Assembly (NCBI GenBank): GCA_036004685.1
Contig: DASYRE010000031.1
Coordinates: forward strand, 62,001-126,000
DNA from: Candidatus Polarisedimenticolia bacterium
GTDB lineage: Bacteria > Acidobacteriota > Polarisedimenticolia > Gp22-AA2 > AA152
Direction of reading: 5' to 3'
DNA: 64,000 nt
This document shows, in pieces, positions 37,039 through 42,456 of the stretch; within the stretch, counting starts at the first letter, position 1; every line of letters begins with the position of its first letter. Under the pieces are notes generated by a model. It saw nothing but the letters and a program-made list of their open reading frames with translations. It did not search any database and was not told the DNA's origin. Made by a program: the position numbers and the translations under genes.

Positions 37039-38367
37039 ATGGCGCTTTCCGGCGAGGCAATCGACACCGGGCTGCGGAAGCTCCGCGGGCGGCAGCTGCG
37101 CCTGATCCTCGGGACGAGCTGGAACCATCTGGCGGAGGCGCGGAGCGCCCTGAGCCTGCTGCGCCAGTGCCTCTCCGGGAGCATGCCGCGTTCTTCGAGG
37201 CGGCTCGCCGACAGCCCACTCCTCGGCGGATGGATTCAAGACGTCCTCTTCTGGCGTGAGGTCGAGCGGATGGCCGCCGCGCAGCGCGGCGAGGCGCCGT
37301 CTGAGGCTCGCGGCATTCGGCTCTTCGAGAGAATCGCCGGCACCGAGTTCCTCACCGAGCTGGTTCCTTCCGGCCGGGTGGAGCGGGGCTTCGCCGCCAG
37401 GGCGCGGCGGCGCGCCCTGGCGATCCTGCGGCAGCGCTGGGCCGACCTTCCCAGGATCCTGATTCCCTATCTCCCTCCAGGCGGTGGGCGCGGGACGTTT
37501 TCCCTGGCGCTTCACAGCATTCCGGACGAGGGGTGCCCCGCCGGCAGGATCCGGCTGGGAGAATCGCCGCTCCTCCTCTCGTGCCCGGCCCGGCGCGCCG
37601 GCTCGATCCGGGTGTGGCGGGTGGGAAGGGCCCTCTTTCTTCCCTCCTTCGTGGAGATCTCGCGGCAGGAGACCGTTCCCGGCACTTCGATCCTTCTCGC
37701 GCATCGGCTCTTCTCCTCGGCGCGGGCGCTGCGCGTCGGCGGTCCGGTGCCCCGCCTCGGCGCCCGGCTCTCCCGGGCCCTGGACCTGGTGGAAGGCGCC
37801 TGGCCGCAGGCGGGCCGGGAGATCCGCCGCAGGACCTGGTTGATCGTGCCGCTGGTCGAGCCGGGAACGGTAAGCTATTCGCACCTCGCGAGACCGGGAA
37901 TCTCGTACTTGAGCGTCTTTCGCGGGTCGCTCGTCGACCTGGCGGACGACCTCCTGCACGAGACGGCGCATCACCGGCTGCACGCCATGCAGGAAGTGAA
38001 GTCCCTGATTCGCGATCCGGGCGAGCGCCGCTTCTACTCGCCCTGGCGGCAGAGCATGCGGCCGCTGAACGGGATCCTCCACGGGACCTTCACTTTTCTG
38101 TACCGCGCGGAGCTGTTCCGGCGGTTGTCGCGGGGGTCGCCGCGACCCGGTAGGGCCCGCCTCTCGGCCGCCGCGAGGCGGAGGCTGGCCTCGGAAGCGA
38201 GGCGGGAGTTGAAGCGCTGCGCGGCGGGGCTGGCCGATCTGCGTGAGGCTTCCCGAGGCGGAGGGCTCACGGCGGCCGGCCGCCGGCTGGCCGCCAGAAT
38301 GGGGCGCCGATTGCGGGCTCTGGAGAAGGGACGCTTGTCGGGGAAACGGGGCTCCATTATATTGTGA
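37039..38367 (+). CDS. HExxH-motif protein, alphaKG-HExxH-type peptide beta-hydroxylase-like
   Basis: 442 residues. AGGAGGAG lies 6-9 nt before ATG 37039. The C-terminal half carries LADDLLHETAHHRLHAMQE (His307, Glu308, His311) followed by RFYSPWRQSMRPLNGILHG. This pair of motifs defines the HEXXH-motif domain family TIGR04267, whose members act on ribosomal peptides as non-haem iron, alpha-ketoglutarate-dependent hydroxylases, or are predicted to. The N-terminal half is Arg-rich and helical with no recognised domain. The next gene, a flavoenzyme, starts 1 bp after its stop and a small-protein gene follows. A peptide-modifying role is inferred from family and context. Confidence 0.75.
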   Translation: MALSGEAIDTGLRKLRGRQLRLILGTSWNHLAEARSALSLLRQCLSGSMPRSSRRLADSPLLGGWIQDVLFWREVERMAAAQRGEAPSEARGIRLFERIAGTEFLTELVPSGRVERGFAARARRRALAILRQRWADLPRILIPYLPPGGGRGTFSLALHSIPDEGCPAGRIRLGESPLLLSCPARRAGSIRVWRVGRALFLPSFVEISRQETVPGTSILLAHRLFSSARALRVGGPVPRLGARLSRALDLVEGAWPQAGREIRRRTWLIVPLVEPGTVSYSHLARPGISYLSVFRGSLVDLADDLLHETAHHRLHAMQEVKSLIRDPGERRFYSPWRQSMRPLNGILHGTFTFLYRAELFRRLSRGSPRPGRARLSAAARRRLASEARRELKRCAAGLADLREASRGGGLTAAGRRLAARMGRRLRALEKGRLSGKRGSIIL

Positions 38368-38368
38368 G

Positions 38369-39814
38369 ATGGTCGACCCCGAATCGACCCAGCCTCGCCG
38401 ACTCTTCTATCAGGAGTTCCTTTTGACCAAAGAGCAGCTTCAGGATCTGCAGCGCGCCTTGCCCGGACGCGTTCACGTCGACGGGGCCACGCTCTCCGAG
38501 AAAAGCTCCGACTTCGGCAGGATGATCCAGCGCACGCCCGGCGCCGTGCTCCGTCCCGCCTCGACGGACGACGTCGTCGAGGCGGTGCGCTTCGCCCGCA
38601 GCGCCCGCCTCGCCATCGCCACGCGCGGGGAGGCCCACACTCAAAGCGGCCAGGCCCTCACCGAGGGGGGAATCCTCCTCGATCTCACCGCGCTTTCGAA
38701 GATCGAGGCGATCGACGCGGCGGCGCCGAGCATCACCTGCGGGGCGGGATTGAAGTGGATGGATCTGGTCGCGGCGACGACCGCCCAGGGACTCATCCCG
38801 CCGGTGCTCACCAACAACCTCGGGGTGACGGTGGGCGGGACGCTGTCGGTCGCCGGCCTGGGCGTCGCCTCGTTCCGCTACGGGACCCAGGGGGACAACG
38901 CGATCGAGCTGGAGGTCGTGACCGGGGCCGGGGAGCGCGTCGTCTGCAGCCGCACCCAGCGGCCGGAGGTCTTCGACGCGGCGCGCTCCGGACTGGGGCA
39001 GTTCGCCATCATCACCCGGGCGAAGCTGCGGCTGCGCCCCTGCCGTCCGATGACCAGGACCTACTTCCTCTTGTACGACGACCTTCAGGTGCTGATGCGC
39101 GACTCGCAGGCGCTCATGGACGATCAGCGCTTCAACTATCTCGAATCCTGGTGCGTCCCGTGCCCGCAGGGCTTCCGGAAGGTCGGGGGGGAGTTCCAGA
39201 CGTTCGCCGAGTGGTTCTATCCGCTCCATCTCACCATCGAGTTCGATCCCGCCGCGCCGCCCGACGAGGCCTCGATCGTGGGGGGGCTCCAGTTCTACCG
39301 GAAGAGCCACGTCGGCGACCGGAGCCTCCTGGAGTTCTCCAATCGTCTCGAGCCGCTGTTCGCCGTCTGGAGGCGGATGGGTTACTGGGCCAACGCCCAT
39401 CCCTGGATGGAGACGATCCTGCCCTGGGGGACGGCCGCCCCTTACATCCAGCAGGTCCTCGCGCAGCTTCCTCCCACGGCGCTCGGCGGCGGGCACGTGC
39501 TTCTCTGGCCGTGCAAGGGAACGACCTCCTCGGTCCCGCTTTTCCAGGTCCCGCCCGGTTCCCACGTCATGGGATTCGGGATCCTCCCGGGAATCCCGCC
39601 CGAGCTCCTGGCGCCGATCAAGGCCCGGCTGAATCTTGCTTCGGACGCGAGCATGGCGGCCGGAGGAAAGCGCTACCTGTCGGGGTTCATCGAGTTCGAC
39701 CGGGCGCGATGGAAGCAGCACTTCGGCGCGGCGTGGGACAAGATCCAGGACCTGAAGAAGCAGCTCGATCCCGACCGAATCTTGAATCCCGGATTCATCG
39801 ACTATGAAACCTAA
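38369..39814 (+). CDS. FAD-binding oxidoreductase, cytokinin-dehydrogenase-like
   Basis: 481 residues. ATG 38369 follows the upstream stop by one base, without a ribosome site, so coupled translation is likely. Residues ~45-225 are a VAO/PCMH-type FAD domain: RPASTDDVVEAVRFARSARL, RGEAHTQSGQ with the His that carries FAD in relatives, and NNLGVTVGGTLSVAGLG. The C-terminal substrate domain (HPWMETILPWG, ending LDPDRILNPGF) resembles the cytokinin dehydrogenase cap domain. It has no signal peptide. True cytokinin oxidation is not implied; the natural substrate may relate to the neighbouring HExxH enzyme. Confidence 0.88.
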   Translation: MVDPESTQPRRLFYQEFLLTKEQLQDLQRALPGRVHVDGATLSEKSSDFGRMIQRTPGAVLRPASTDDVVEAVRFARSARLAIATRGEAHTQSGQALTEGGILLDLTALSKIEAIDAAAPSITCGAGLKWMDLVAATTAQGLIPPVLTNNLGVTVGGTLSVAGLGVASFRYGTQGDNAIELEVVTGAGERVVCSRTQRPEVFDAARSGLGQFAIITRAKLRLRPCRPMTRTYFLLYDDLQVLMRDSQALMDDQRFNYLESWCVPCPQGFRKVGGEFQTFAEWFYPLHLTIEFDPAAPPDEASIVGGLQFYRKSHVGDRSLLEFSNRLEPLFAVWRRMGYWANAHPWMETILPWGTAAPYIQQVLAQLPPTALGGGHVLLWPCKGTTSSVPLFQVPPGSHVMGFGILPGIPPELLAPIKARLNLASDASMAAGGKRYLSGFIEFDRARWKQHFGAAWDKIQDLKKQLDPDRILNPGFIDYET

Positions 39815-40070
39815 CATGAAGCCGGTCGAGCACTTCATCAAGTTCTTCCGCCAGCTTCCCGGCCTGAGCGCCAAGGTCCTGACCGAGAAGGAATGGTCCA
39901 GCCTGCTCGTGATCGAGGATCGCGAGGAGTTTCGGCAAAAGGTGGACGAGTATTTCCCGGGACTCACGGAGCCGCAGAAGGAACGCATGGCGCAGTTCCT
40001 CTACGACAAGAATCAGGAGCTGCTGCGGGAGATGGAGGAGGAGCCGGGCGACTCAGGCGGCGGGCATTAG
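39804..40070 (+). CDS. Small charged protein, unknown function
   Basis: 88 residues. ATG 39804 overlaps the flavoenzyme end by 11 nt; ATG 39816 is also in frame. No Cys, signal peptide or membrane segment. Helical, amphipathic and charged (KVLTEKEWSSLLVIEDREEF, KNQELLREMEEEPGD), ending DSGGGH. It does not look like a recognised leader-core precursor peptide. As the last gene of the three-gene set it is a candidate substrate or subunit of the two upstream enzymes. The role is unknown. Confidence 0.75.
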   Translation: MKPNMKPVEHFIKFFRQLPGLSAKVLTEKEWSSLLVIEDREEFRQKVDEYFPGLTEPQKERMAQFLYDKNQELLREMEEEPGDSGGGH

Positions 40071-40110: not shown

Positions 40111-41319
40111 TCAGGGGAGGGAGAGGTCGGCGGGGCGGATGCCGCGAAGGACGAGAAGCCTCTCTACGACCTCGCCGATGCGATTGTTCGGCGTGGAGGC
40201 CCCCGCCGTGATGCCGATCACCAGCGGCCCGGCCTGCAGCCAGCCCGATTGCGTCTCCTCCGATTTGCCGCTCACCGGCTTGTGGCGGATCGTCGAGGCA
40301 TCGACCAGGCAGGAAGAATCCTCGATGTGATAGGTGGGGACCTGCGCCGCGGAGAGCTCCGCGAGGTGGTTGGTGTTGCTGCTGTTGTACCCTCCGATGA
40401 CGAGCATCAGCGAAACGCCCTCCTTCAGAAGCTTCAGGACGGCGTCCTGACGGTCCTGGGTGGCGCTGCAGATCGTGTCGAAGGACCGGAAGTGCTTCGG
40501 CAGCTCCACCTCGCCGTAACGGGCGATCATCGCCTGGCGGATGCGCTCCGCGACCTCGAGCGACTCGGAGCTGAGCATCGTCGTCTGGTTGGCCAGGCCG
40601 GCGCGCTCCAGATCCCGATCGGGGTCGAATCCCTCCGAAACCGCCGGCTGGAAGCGGGTCAGGAAGGCGTCGCGATCTCCCCGGCCCAGAATGTGCTCGC
40701 AGACGATCCCTGTTTCCTCGTGATCCCGGACGACCAGGTACTTTCCGTCCTTGTAGAGGCTCGTCCGCGAGGCGGTCGACCGGGTCTCCTCGTGGTCGTA
40801 TTTCCCGTGGATGATCGACGTGAAGCCGTCCCGGGCGTAGCGCTCCACGTTCTTCCAGACGTTCAGGACCGATCCGCACGTGGTGTCGACGAGCGTGCAG
40901 CCTTTCCCGCGCAGCAGGTCCATCTGACCCACGGTGACTCCGAAAGCGGGAAGGATCACCACGTCGGTGGCGGACAGATCCTCCCAGGCCCCTGGCGGCG
41001 CGTCGGGACCGGTGAGGAAGCGAATCCCCATCTCACGCAGGCGCTGGTTCACGTGCGGATTGTGGATGATCTCGCCGGTGATGTGGATGTCGCGGTCCGG
41101 GAACCGTTTGCGTGTCTCGTAAGCGTATTCCACCGCCCGGTCGACGCCGTAGCAGAAGCCGAACTCCGCGGCCAGGCGGAACGTGAGGTCGCCGGCGGTG
41201 AGCGTGAAGCCGTTGCGTTTCAGAGCATCGACGATCCGGCTGCGGTAATCCTCCCGCAGCTTTCCCTCGATCTCCGACTTCAGCCCGAATCCTCGCGGAA
41301 AATACTGCACTTCGGCCAT
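40111..41319 (-). CDS. ispH: 4-hydroxy-3-methylbut-2-enyl diphosphate reductase, long (cyanobacterial/plastid-like) form
   Basis: 402 residues from ATG 41319. Last enzyme of the MEP pathway; reduces HMBPP to IPP and DMAPP with a [4Fe-4S] cluster. The three cluster Cys are present: FGFCYGVDRA, LVDTTCGSV, FDTICSATQ. YNSSNTNHL and ITAGASTPNN are substrate-site motifs. The length and NSSNT motif match the cyanobacterial/plant branch rather than the ~310-residue enterobacterial form. It lies 23 bp after a helical lipoprotein-like gene on the same strand; no other MEP gene is near. Confidence 0.96.
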   Translation of the reverse strand: MAEVQYFPRGFGLKSEIEGKLREDYRSRIVDALKRNGFTLTAGDLTFRLAAEFGFCYGVDRAVEYAYETRKRFPDRDIHITGEIIHNPHVNQRLREMGIRFLTGPDAPPGAWEDLSATDVVILPAFGVTVGQMDLLRGKGCTLVDTTCGSVLNVWKNVERYARDGFTSIIHGKYDHEETRSTASRTSLYKDGKYLVVRDHEETGIVCEHILGRGDRDAFLTRFQPAVSEGFDPDRDLERAGLANQTTMLSSESLEVAERIRQAMIARYGEVELPKHFRSFDTICSATQDRQDAVLKLLKEGVSLMLVIGGYNSSNTNHLAELSAAQVPTYHIEDSSCLVDASTIRHKPVSGKSEETQSGWLQAGPLVIGITAGASTPNNRIGEVVERLLVLRGIRPADLSLP

Positions 41320-42080: not shown

Positions 42081-42144
42081 CCGGTCGGTTACGCAGGTTT
42101 CCGATCTCATGTTTCCTGGCACCGCGTTGAAAGGGGGTGACAGT

Positions 42145-42456
42145 TTGGCGAAGAAGCGAGCAAAGAAGAAGAGCGTGAAGCGCGGCAAGAAGACCATGGC
42201 CCGCAAGCCGGCCCGCAAGGCTTCGAAGCGGAAGCCGGCCCGCGGCCGGACGGCGGCCAAGCGCCGAGCCGCTCCGAAGAAGAAGGCCGCTCCCCGGAGG
42301 AAGTCCGCTCCGAAAAAAAAGGCCGCTTCCAGACCGACCATGGCGTCGAAGCCGATGGCCCCCCGTTCCGCTCCGCCCACGATGCCTTCGGCGACTCCCA
42401 GCTTCGGTGGTCCCGCCGGCGCCGACAGTGACTGGGCCTCCGACGACGAGGAATAG
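42145..42456 (+). CDS. Lys/Ala/Pro-rich histone H1-like DNA-binding protein
   Basis: 103 residues. TTG 42145 has AAGGGGGTGA 5 nt upstream; ATG 42109 is in frame without such a site. The first 70 residues are almost wholly Lys, Arg, Ala and Pro (KKRAKKKSVKRGKKTMARK, APKKKAAPRRKSAPKKKAAS), like the C-terminal tail of eukaryotic H1 and bacterial Hc1/AlgP-type proteins. A neutral Pro/Met-rich stretch and an acidic tail (DSDWASDDEE) follow. It probably binds DNA or RNA non-specifically. It has a promoter match upstream and a strong terminator 45 bp downstream, so it is a single-gene transcript. Confidence 0.8.
   Translation: MAKKRAKKKSVKRGKKTMARKPARKASKRKPARGRTAAKRRAAPKKKAAPRRKSAPKKKAASRPTMASKPMAPRSAPPTMPSATPSFGGPAGADSDWASDDEE

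Follow-up and report, generated by a model that had tools for sequence, protein, structure and literature searches.

The three genes in tandem on the plus strand at positions 37039-40070 of the window (the whole stretch analysed, 64,000 nucleotides of contig DASYRE010000031.1 from Candidatus Polarisedimenticolia bacterium, whose genome comprises 3.84 Mb in 62 contigs) may form a small oxidative operon and not a cluster for a ribosomally synthesised and post-translationally modified peptide (RiPP). The operon would combine an orphan branch of the α-ketoglutarate-dependent HExxH (aKG-HExxH) oxygenases (gene 1), a flavo-oxidase with the fold of cytokinin dehydrogenase (CKX; gene 2) and a lineage-specific partner (gene 3; Table 1). 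We hold this reading, which includes the assignment of gene 1 to a stand-alone and vertically inherited clade, tentatively and at somewhat less than an even chance. If it is true, a clade inherited vertically throughout an order and outside peptide natural-product pathways would imply a cellular role for a recently recognised oxygenase fold. The closest named relative found is an Acidobacteria metagenome-assembled genome (QHVQ01000020.1).

Against TIGR04267 gene 1 scores 91.3 bits (curated cut-off 40) over residues 245-421, with the whole model covered, and 94.6 bits in the genome-wide search, in which it is the sole TIGR04267 gene of the genome. The profile search is hence in agreement with the initial annotation, which had proposed this family from HETAHH, YSPWR and RPLNGILHG, all present in gene 1. 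A Pfam scan of gene 1 gave no match. Its top match in the PDB is ChlH (8s5f, E 7e-12), and HExxH, SPWR and RPxxGxLH are found in both proteins of the alignment. Orthologues with 52-56% identity are present in G002 (locus L006) and G003, and the copy in G001, whose contig begins inside gene 1, has 61% identity over 193 aa. The 18 homologues aligned are acidobacterial; three are weak members, in which the R-P of RPxxGxxH is replaced by R-T, R-S or R-K. In the sections of the literature drawn on here, studied members of the family hydroxylate RiPP precursors and in one case cleave oxidatively (PMC12636437, PMC13060819), and the characterised members are all RiPP enzymes (PMC12257519, PMC12707348, PMC12614342 and PMC7726476 being among the further papers). 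With the aKG-HExxH peptide β-hydroxylases (TIGR04267; ChlH/ChlBH, BpmH/BipH, PflC/PosC, PesO) gene 1 shares a score above the cut-off and intact HExxH, PWR and RPxxGxxH motifs, but it differs from them in lying outside a RiPP cluster, with no radical S-adenosylmethionine (SAM) enzyme or multinuclear non-heme iron-dependent oxidase (MNIO) seen as a neighbour, in being kept across an order and in its link to a CKX-fold flavoprotein.

The distribution of gene 1 is consistent with vertical inheritance. Among the 347 genomes of the phylum that were sampled, it occurs in 18 (counted at E <= 1e-5), 15 of which make up the clade (E <= 1e-40) and three of which carry the weak members (G034, G305, G326). 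Gene 2, counted at E <= 1e-60, occurs in 32 genomes and is present in 14 of the 15 clade genomes. Of the 12 genomes in the order, 11 carry both genes; the remaining one, G011, which is 63% complete, has neither. Counted by genome, the co-occurrence of genes 1 and 2 yields a Fisher p of 2e-15, a value inflated by relatedness. In the tree of gene 1, from which three of 23 rows (G047, G253b, G271) dropped out, being unmatched by the PWR filter, the 15 genomes of the clade fall together on one side, but support is only moderate (79/87) and the branches are long.

By Pfam, no RiPP machinery was found among 30 window proteins between 20.7 and 63.3 kb, most of which have house-keeping functions, and a regular expression for the radical SAM motif gave no match within 33 kb around the locus. 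The initial annotation had seen no recognised leader or transporter; neither these nor a radical SAM maturase was found nearby. The motif was likewise not found in 12 of the 13 clade loci scanned, the window included; the exception, L074, has a radical-SAM-like CxxxCxxC protein some kb off on the other strand. TIGR04267 as a whole is present in 22 of the 347 genomes, i.e. the 15 of the clade and seven others. In five of these seven, RiPP maturases or repeated short peptides adjoin the gene, whereas none are adjacent in the present clade. That an enzyme of this family occurs in a soil acidobacterium in a vertically inherited pair with a CKX-like flavoprotein, together with a small helical protein confined to its own family, suggests a non-antibiotic job for the enzyme family.

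The seven other genomes give an impression of what a RiPP context looks like in this phylum. In four of them (G047, G180, G326, G271) the HExxH gene adjoins one for a RiPP-type radical SAM protein. The radical SAM proteins of G047 and G180 are FxsB/YhhB-like, under the cut-offs of those models. G326 (L081:5230-8037) has a compact RiPP cluster with a YhhB radical SAM enzyme and a YhhA precursor, both over cut-off, and the HExxH protein, and G271 (L140:4418-7831) combines a RiPP radical SAM C-methyltransferase (TIGR03975) over the cut-off, a TIGR04267 protein below it and a possible precursor of 66 aa. YhhA/YhhB-type cyclophane clusters such as that of G326 and the present locus have TIGR04267 proteins and the phylum in common, but the present locus has neither the adjacent precursor nor the radical SAM enzyme. 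In G253 (L139:6827-9988), two tandem HExxH proteins lie beside two near-identical ORFs (open reading frames) of 47-52 aa, which share a C-terminal half that contains Cys; beside them no radical SAM gene was called, and the locus is a possible unusual RiPP cluster. G034 has a 49 aa ORF just upstream of its HExxH gene, and the HExxH locus of G305 is truncated by the contig end. In G180 (L138), a flavin adenine dinucleotide (FAD)-oxidase (gene 2 profile E 8e-29) is found about 2.7 kb from the RiPP-type HExxH gene on the opposite strand, separated from it by ORFs that are transposase-like by eye.

Gene 2 matches FAD_binding_4 (9e-29) and Cytokin-bind (2.9e-15) above the Pfam cut-offs, and its best PDB matches are CKX structures (E 3e-55), which agrees with the earlier view of a vanillyl-alcohol oxidase (VAO)-type, cytokinin-dehydrogenase-like flavoprotein. 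The residues discussed in the following were counted by hand on the printed alignment to ZmCKX1 (3s1e). Gene 2 and the cytokinin dehydrogenases (ZmCKX1, R. fascians CKX, NoCKX1) have in common the fold, the domains, the FAD-linking His (His105, of the GHS motif, in ZmCKX1), HPW, HFG and the position of Tyr491. They differ in that gene 2 has Asn149-Asn150 for the active-site residues Asp169-Tyr170 and, at the substrate residues Val378 and Glu381, Leu327 and Leu330 (residue roles in CKX as given in the part of PMC4574047 drawn on). Among the distinct Acidobacteriota rows, all 30 that are readable at His90 have a His there, and Thr-Asn-Asn (TNN) occurs in 30 of 31, with TSN in one; four plasmid-borne homologues from Streptomyces and Nostoc retain TDY. 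Asp132, considered as the catalytic Asp of CKX, was rejected, as the alignment to ZmCKX1 puts Asn149 at that place. Because the active-site Asp-Tyr is replaced by Asn-Asn, gene 2 probably belongs to a CKX-fold subfamily that is no cytokinin dehydrogenase. This defines a TNN-for-TDY flavoprotein subfamily, for which the annotation as cytokinin dehydrogenase is unwarranted without an assay.

Judged by their substitution pattern, all three genes are genuine genes under purifying selection and not chance ORFs, because they are kept in relatives with the proportion of non-synonymous differences (pN) well below that of synonymous ones (pS). Nei-Gojobori (NG86) counting, with two to three relatives for comparison, gives a pS of 0.48-0.64 and a pN of 0.17-0.34 for genes 1-3, corresponding to a pN/pS of about 0.5 for gene 1 and 0.3-0.4 for genes 2 and 3. 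The cassette on one strand and the 1-bp spacing of genes 1 and 2 stand as initially annotated. The -11-bp overlap of genes 2 and 3 and the length of 88 residues given for the third protein both depend on ATG 39804. In three relatives gene 3 starts with M/V-R-P-x-E-H-F, 7-8 bp past the stop of gene 2, and since this conserved start corresponds to ATG 39816 here, gene 3 most likely begins there, which gives 84 aa and again a 1-bp gap.

Gene 3 had no match at a meaningful score in scans of family profiles, and a PDB sequence search gave nothing below E 0.08. Its two-sequence AlphaFold2 model has four helices and an acidic tail of low confidence (mean predicted local distance difference test, pLDDT, 75.8); in a fold search with this model no PDB entry matched at E <= 0.001 (best 1.1). 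Sequence conservation spans all 75 residues of the helical part, with variation limited to the acidic tail, and the pattern of a RiPP precursor, a conserved leader followed by a variable core, was not found among the sequences of family f1, the window's own family. A single-sequence search detected gene 3 in 4 of 100 genomes and a profile search in 4 of the 347, all from f1. Marginal matches in 18 other acidobacteria (E 0.008-0.09) were dismissed as chance level for 347 genomes at E <= 0.1. Eleven of the 15 genomes that carry the gene 1 clade lack gene 3; by this distribution it cannot be the general substrate of that clade. The initial annotation had left substrate or partner open; a substrate is disfavoured by the narrow distribution, the lack of a variable core and the predicted four-helix fold, while a partner, added in f1, is likelier.

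In f1 the trio is contiguous in four of four genomes, so that neither condition set for refuting the initial annotation, homologues that never co-occur or a first protein without the TIGR04267 domain, holds. In the sister family f2, five genomes (G004, G005, G007, G008 and G009) have genes 1 and 2 on the same strand at a distance of 4-5 kb; in G006 and G010 the two genes lie on different contigs, and the contig ends would fit a break between them, in or near a MauE-like gene. Of the 30 window proteins tested, genes 1 and 2 alone were found in the f2 loci. Among the genes encoded between them are those for a MauE/DoxX protein, a thioredoxin-like protein and, on the opposite strand, a tetratricopeptide repeat (TPR) protein. 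The MauE/DoxX membrane protein and the thioredoxin-like protein follow gene 2 in L066-L069, L072 and L108, a pair that presumably resembles MauE-MauD pairs.

Based on these findings we tentatively propose that gene 1, as an Fe(II)/α-ketoglutarate HExxH oxygenase, would hydroxylate a substrate of peptidyl or peptide-like nature whose gene lies elsewhere, as is expected from its family. Gene 2 would hold its FAD covalently, as its conserved His suggests, and with its rewired active site might oxidise the same substrate, in the simplest case through dehydrogenation of a carbinol or amine produced or left behind by gene 1. Gene 3 may be a folded four-helix partner, acquired in f1, that binds to gene 1, gene 2 or both. 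The peptide- or protein-modifying system initially suggested is retained in its enzyme family and its cassette, with gene 3 not favoured as the modified substrate. A bolder version, which we regard as unlikely, is a new two-step protein oxidation system in which a house-keeping, non-RiPP aKG-HExxH branch hydroxylates an endogenous protein, the CKX-fold flavoprotein performs a second oxidation step (net +14 Da) and gene 3 is a lineage-specific adaptor. We found no published account of an aKG-HExxH/CKX-fold pairing in the open-licence literature. The three genes are an expressible set for finding the substrate.

Several observations weigh against a joint oxidative operon. Hydroxylation followed by dehydrogenation would be the simplest chemistry joining genes 1 and 2, and it is drawn from family knowledge only. 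Because gene order around the trio is likewise collinear across f1, the contiguity of the trio there says little, and in f2 genes 1 and 2 form no operon because opposite-strand genes intervene. In G012 (f3), G024 and G026 (both f11) the two genes are on different contigs, and no linkage was seen. G018 carries gene 1 but lacks gene 2 (best E 1.4e-23), and 16 of the 32 genomes with gene 2 lack gene 1, or 18 if the RiPP-type copies of G305 and G326 are excluded. By family within the class, four families have both genes, one gene 1 only, three gene 2 only and four neither (Fisher p = 0.29). Finally, the AlphaFold2 model of gene 1, built from two sequences, had a pLDDT of 41.4 and was discarded.

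Genes 1 and 2 might have unrelated jobs, with their closeness being inherited gene order and gene 3 an accessory to gene 2 only. The insignificant co-occurrence at the family level, the frequency of gene 2 without gene 1 and its recurrence beside other genes, e.g. IspH, all fit this explanation, but the proximity has been held in both f1 and f2 although no other tested window protein is common to those loci, and gene 2 accompanies nearly the whole clade; we consider it rather unlikely, if a serious contender. That gene 3 is instead a dedicated substrate, hydroxylated by gene 1 and oxidised by gene 2 at its residues, would suit a single operon with 1-bp gaps in all f1 genomes and, in the sections drawn on, the action of known family members on adjacently encoded ribosomal peptides (PMC12636437, PMC13060819). 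Its absence from most of the clade, the variation confined to the acidic tail and the fact that no RiPP-typical protease or transporter was seen near the locus make this a distinctly unlikely explanation.

It is very unlikely that the locus belongs to a cryptic RiPP system with its precursor elsewhere in the genome. Some RiPP components are encoded remotely, and all characterised relatives in the papers drawn on are RiPP enzymes, but almost every genome of the order has inherited the gene vertically, and neither maturases nor exporters lie near it, whereas other acidobacterial members show them. Most improbable of all is a role of gene 1 as metallopeptidase instead of oxygenase. HExxH is the zincin motif, and PflC from the same family hydrolyses a leaderless peptide, according to the part of PMC12636437 drawn on, but the PWR and RPxxGxxH residues in common with the oxygenase ChlH are invariant in all homologues aligned. 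The joint oxidative operon remains our preferred, tentative reading.

Table 1. Genes and residues of the cassette and the neighbouring IspH gene, in window coordinates
Feature	Position	Strand	Basis or further occurrence
Gene 1, stand-alone aKG-HExxH (TIGR04267) oxygenase-like protein, 442 aa	37039..38367	+	TIGR04267 score, ChlH PDB match, orthologues
HExxH of gene 1 (H307-H311)	37957..37971	+	H307, E308, H311 invariant in 18/18 aligned homologues
PWR...RPLNGILH motif of gene 1 (P335-H348)	38041..38082	+	P335, W336, R337, R341, G345, H348 invariant 18/18; motif also in ChlH
Gene 2, cytokinin-dehydrogenase-fold FAD protein, 481 aa	38369..39814	+	Pfam and CKX structures
His90 of gene 2 (in GEAHTQSG), at the place of FAD-linking His105 of ZmCKX1	38636..38638	+	Alignment to 3s1e
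Thr148-Asn149-Asn150 of gene 2, where CKX has Thr-Asp169-Tyr170	38810..38818	+	Alignment to 3s1e
Gene 3, small acidic helical protein, probably 84 aa (88 with upstream ATG 39804)	39816..40070	+	Conserved start and sequence in 4/4 family genomes; AlphaFold2
IspH near gene 2	40111-41319	-	Also L007, L008, L009, L082, L094, L095, L097, L098, L099, L106

Eleven of the 32 genomes with gene 2, drawn from three families, encode IspH (LytB) at most about 5 kb from it; two of these cases are seen only as contig-edge fragments. The f1 genomes have a 402-aa type, and f29 and f58 have another type, alongside an AMP-ligase and QueF. As a functional neighbour of gene 2, IspH was rejected: the choice is post hoc, and a rough hand estimate suggests that chance alone would yield some neighbour that recurs in two lineages. 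The proximity is only a lead towards an isoprenoid-related substrate. Other homologues of gene 2, in f11 and f6 (L077, L079, L101), have an SCP2-like protein encoded directly after them (Pfam match for the L101 copy). On a plasmid of Streptomyces sp. NBC_01558 (L114) the homologue is convergent with a TauD/TfdA-type α-ketoglutarate dioxygenase, followed by a peroxiredoxin and DoxX, so that another flavo-oxidase lies beside an α-ketoglutarate oxygenase.

A promoter/terminator scan at the locus found no terminator and one weak promoter-like site. Downstream, at 42109-42456 on the plus strand, the window encodes a small Lys/Ala-rich protein that is histone-H1-like by eye, and ORFs resembling it occupy the equivalent position in L006, L007 and L009.

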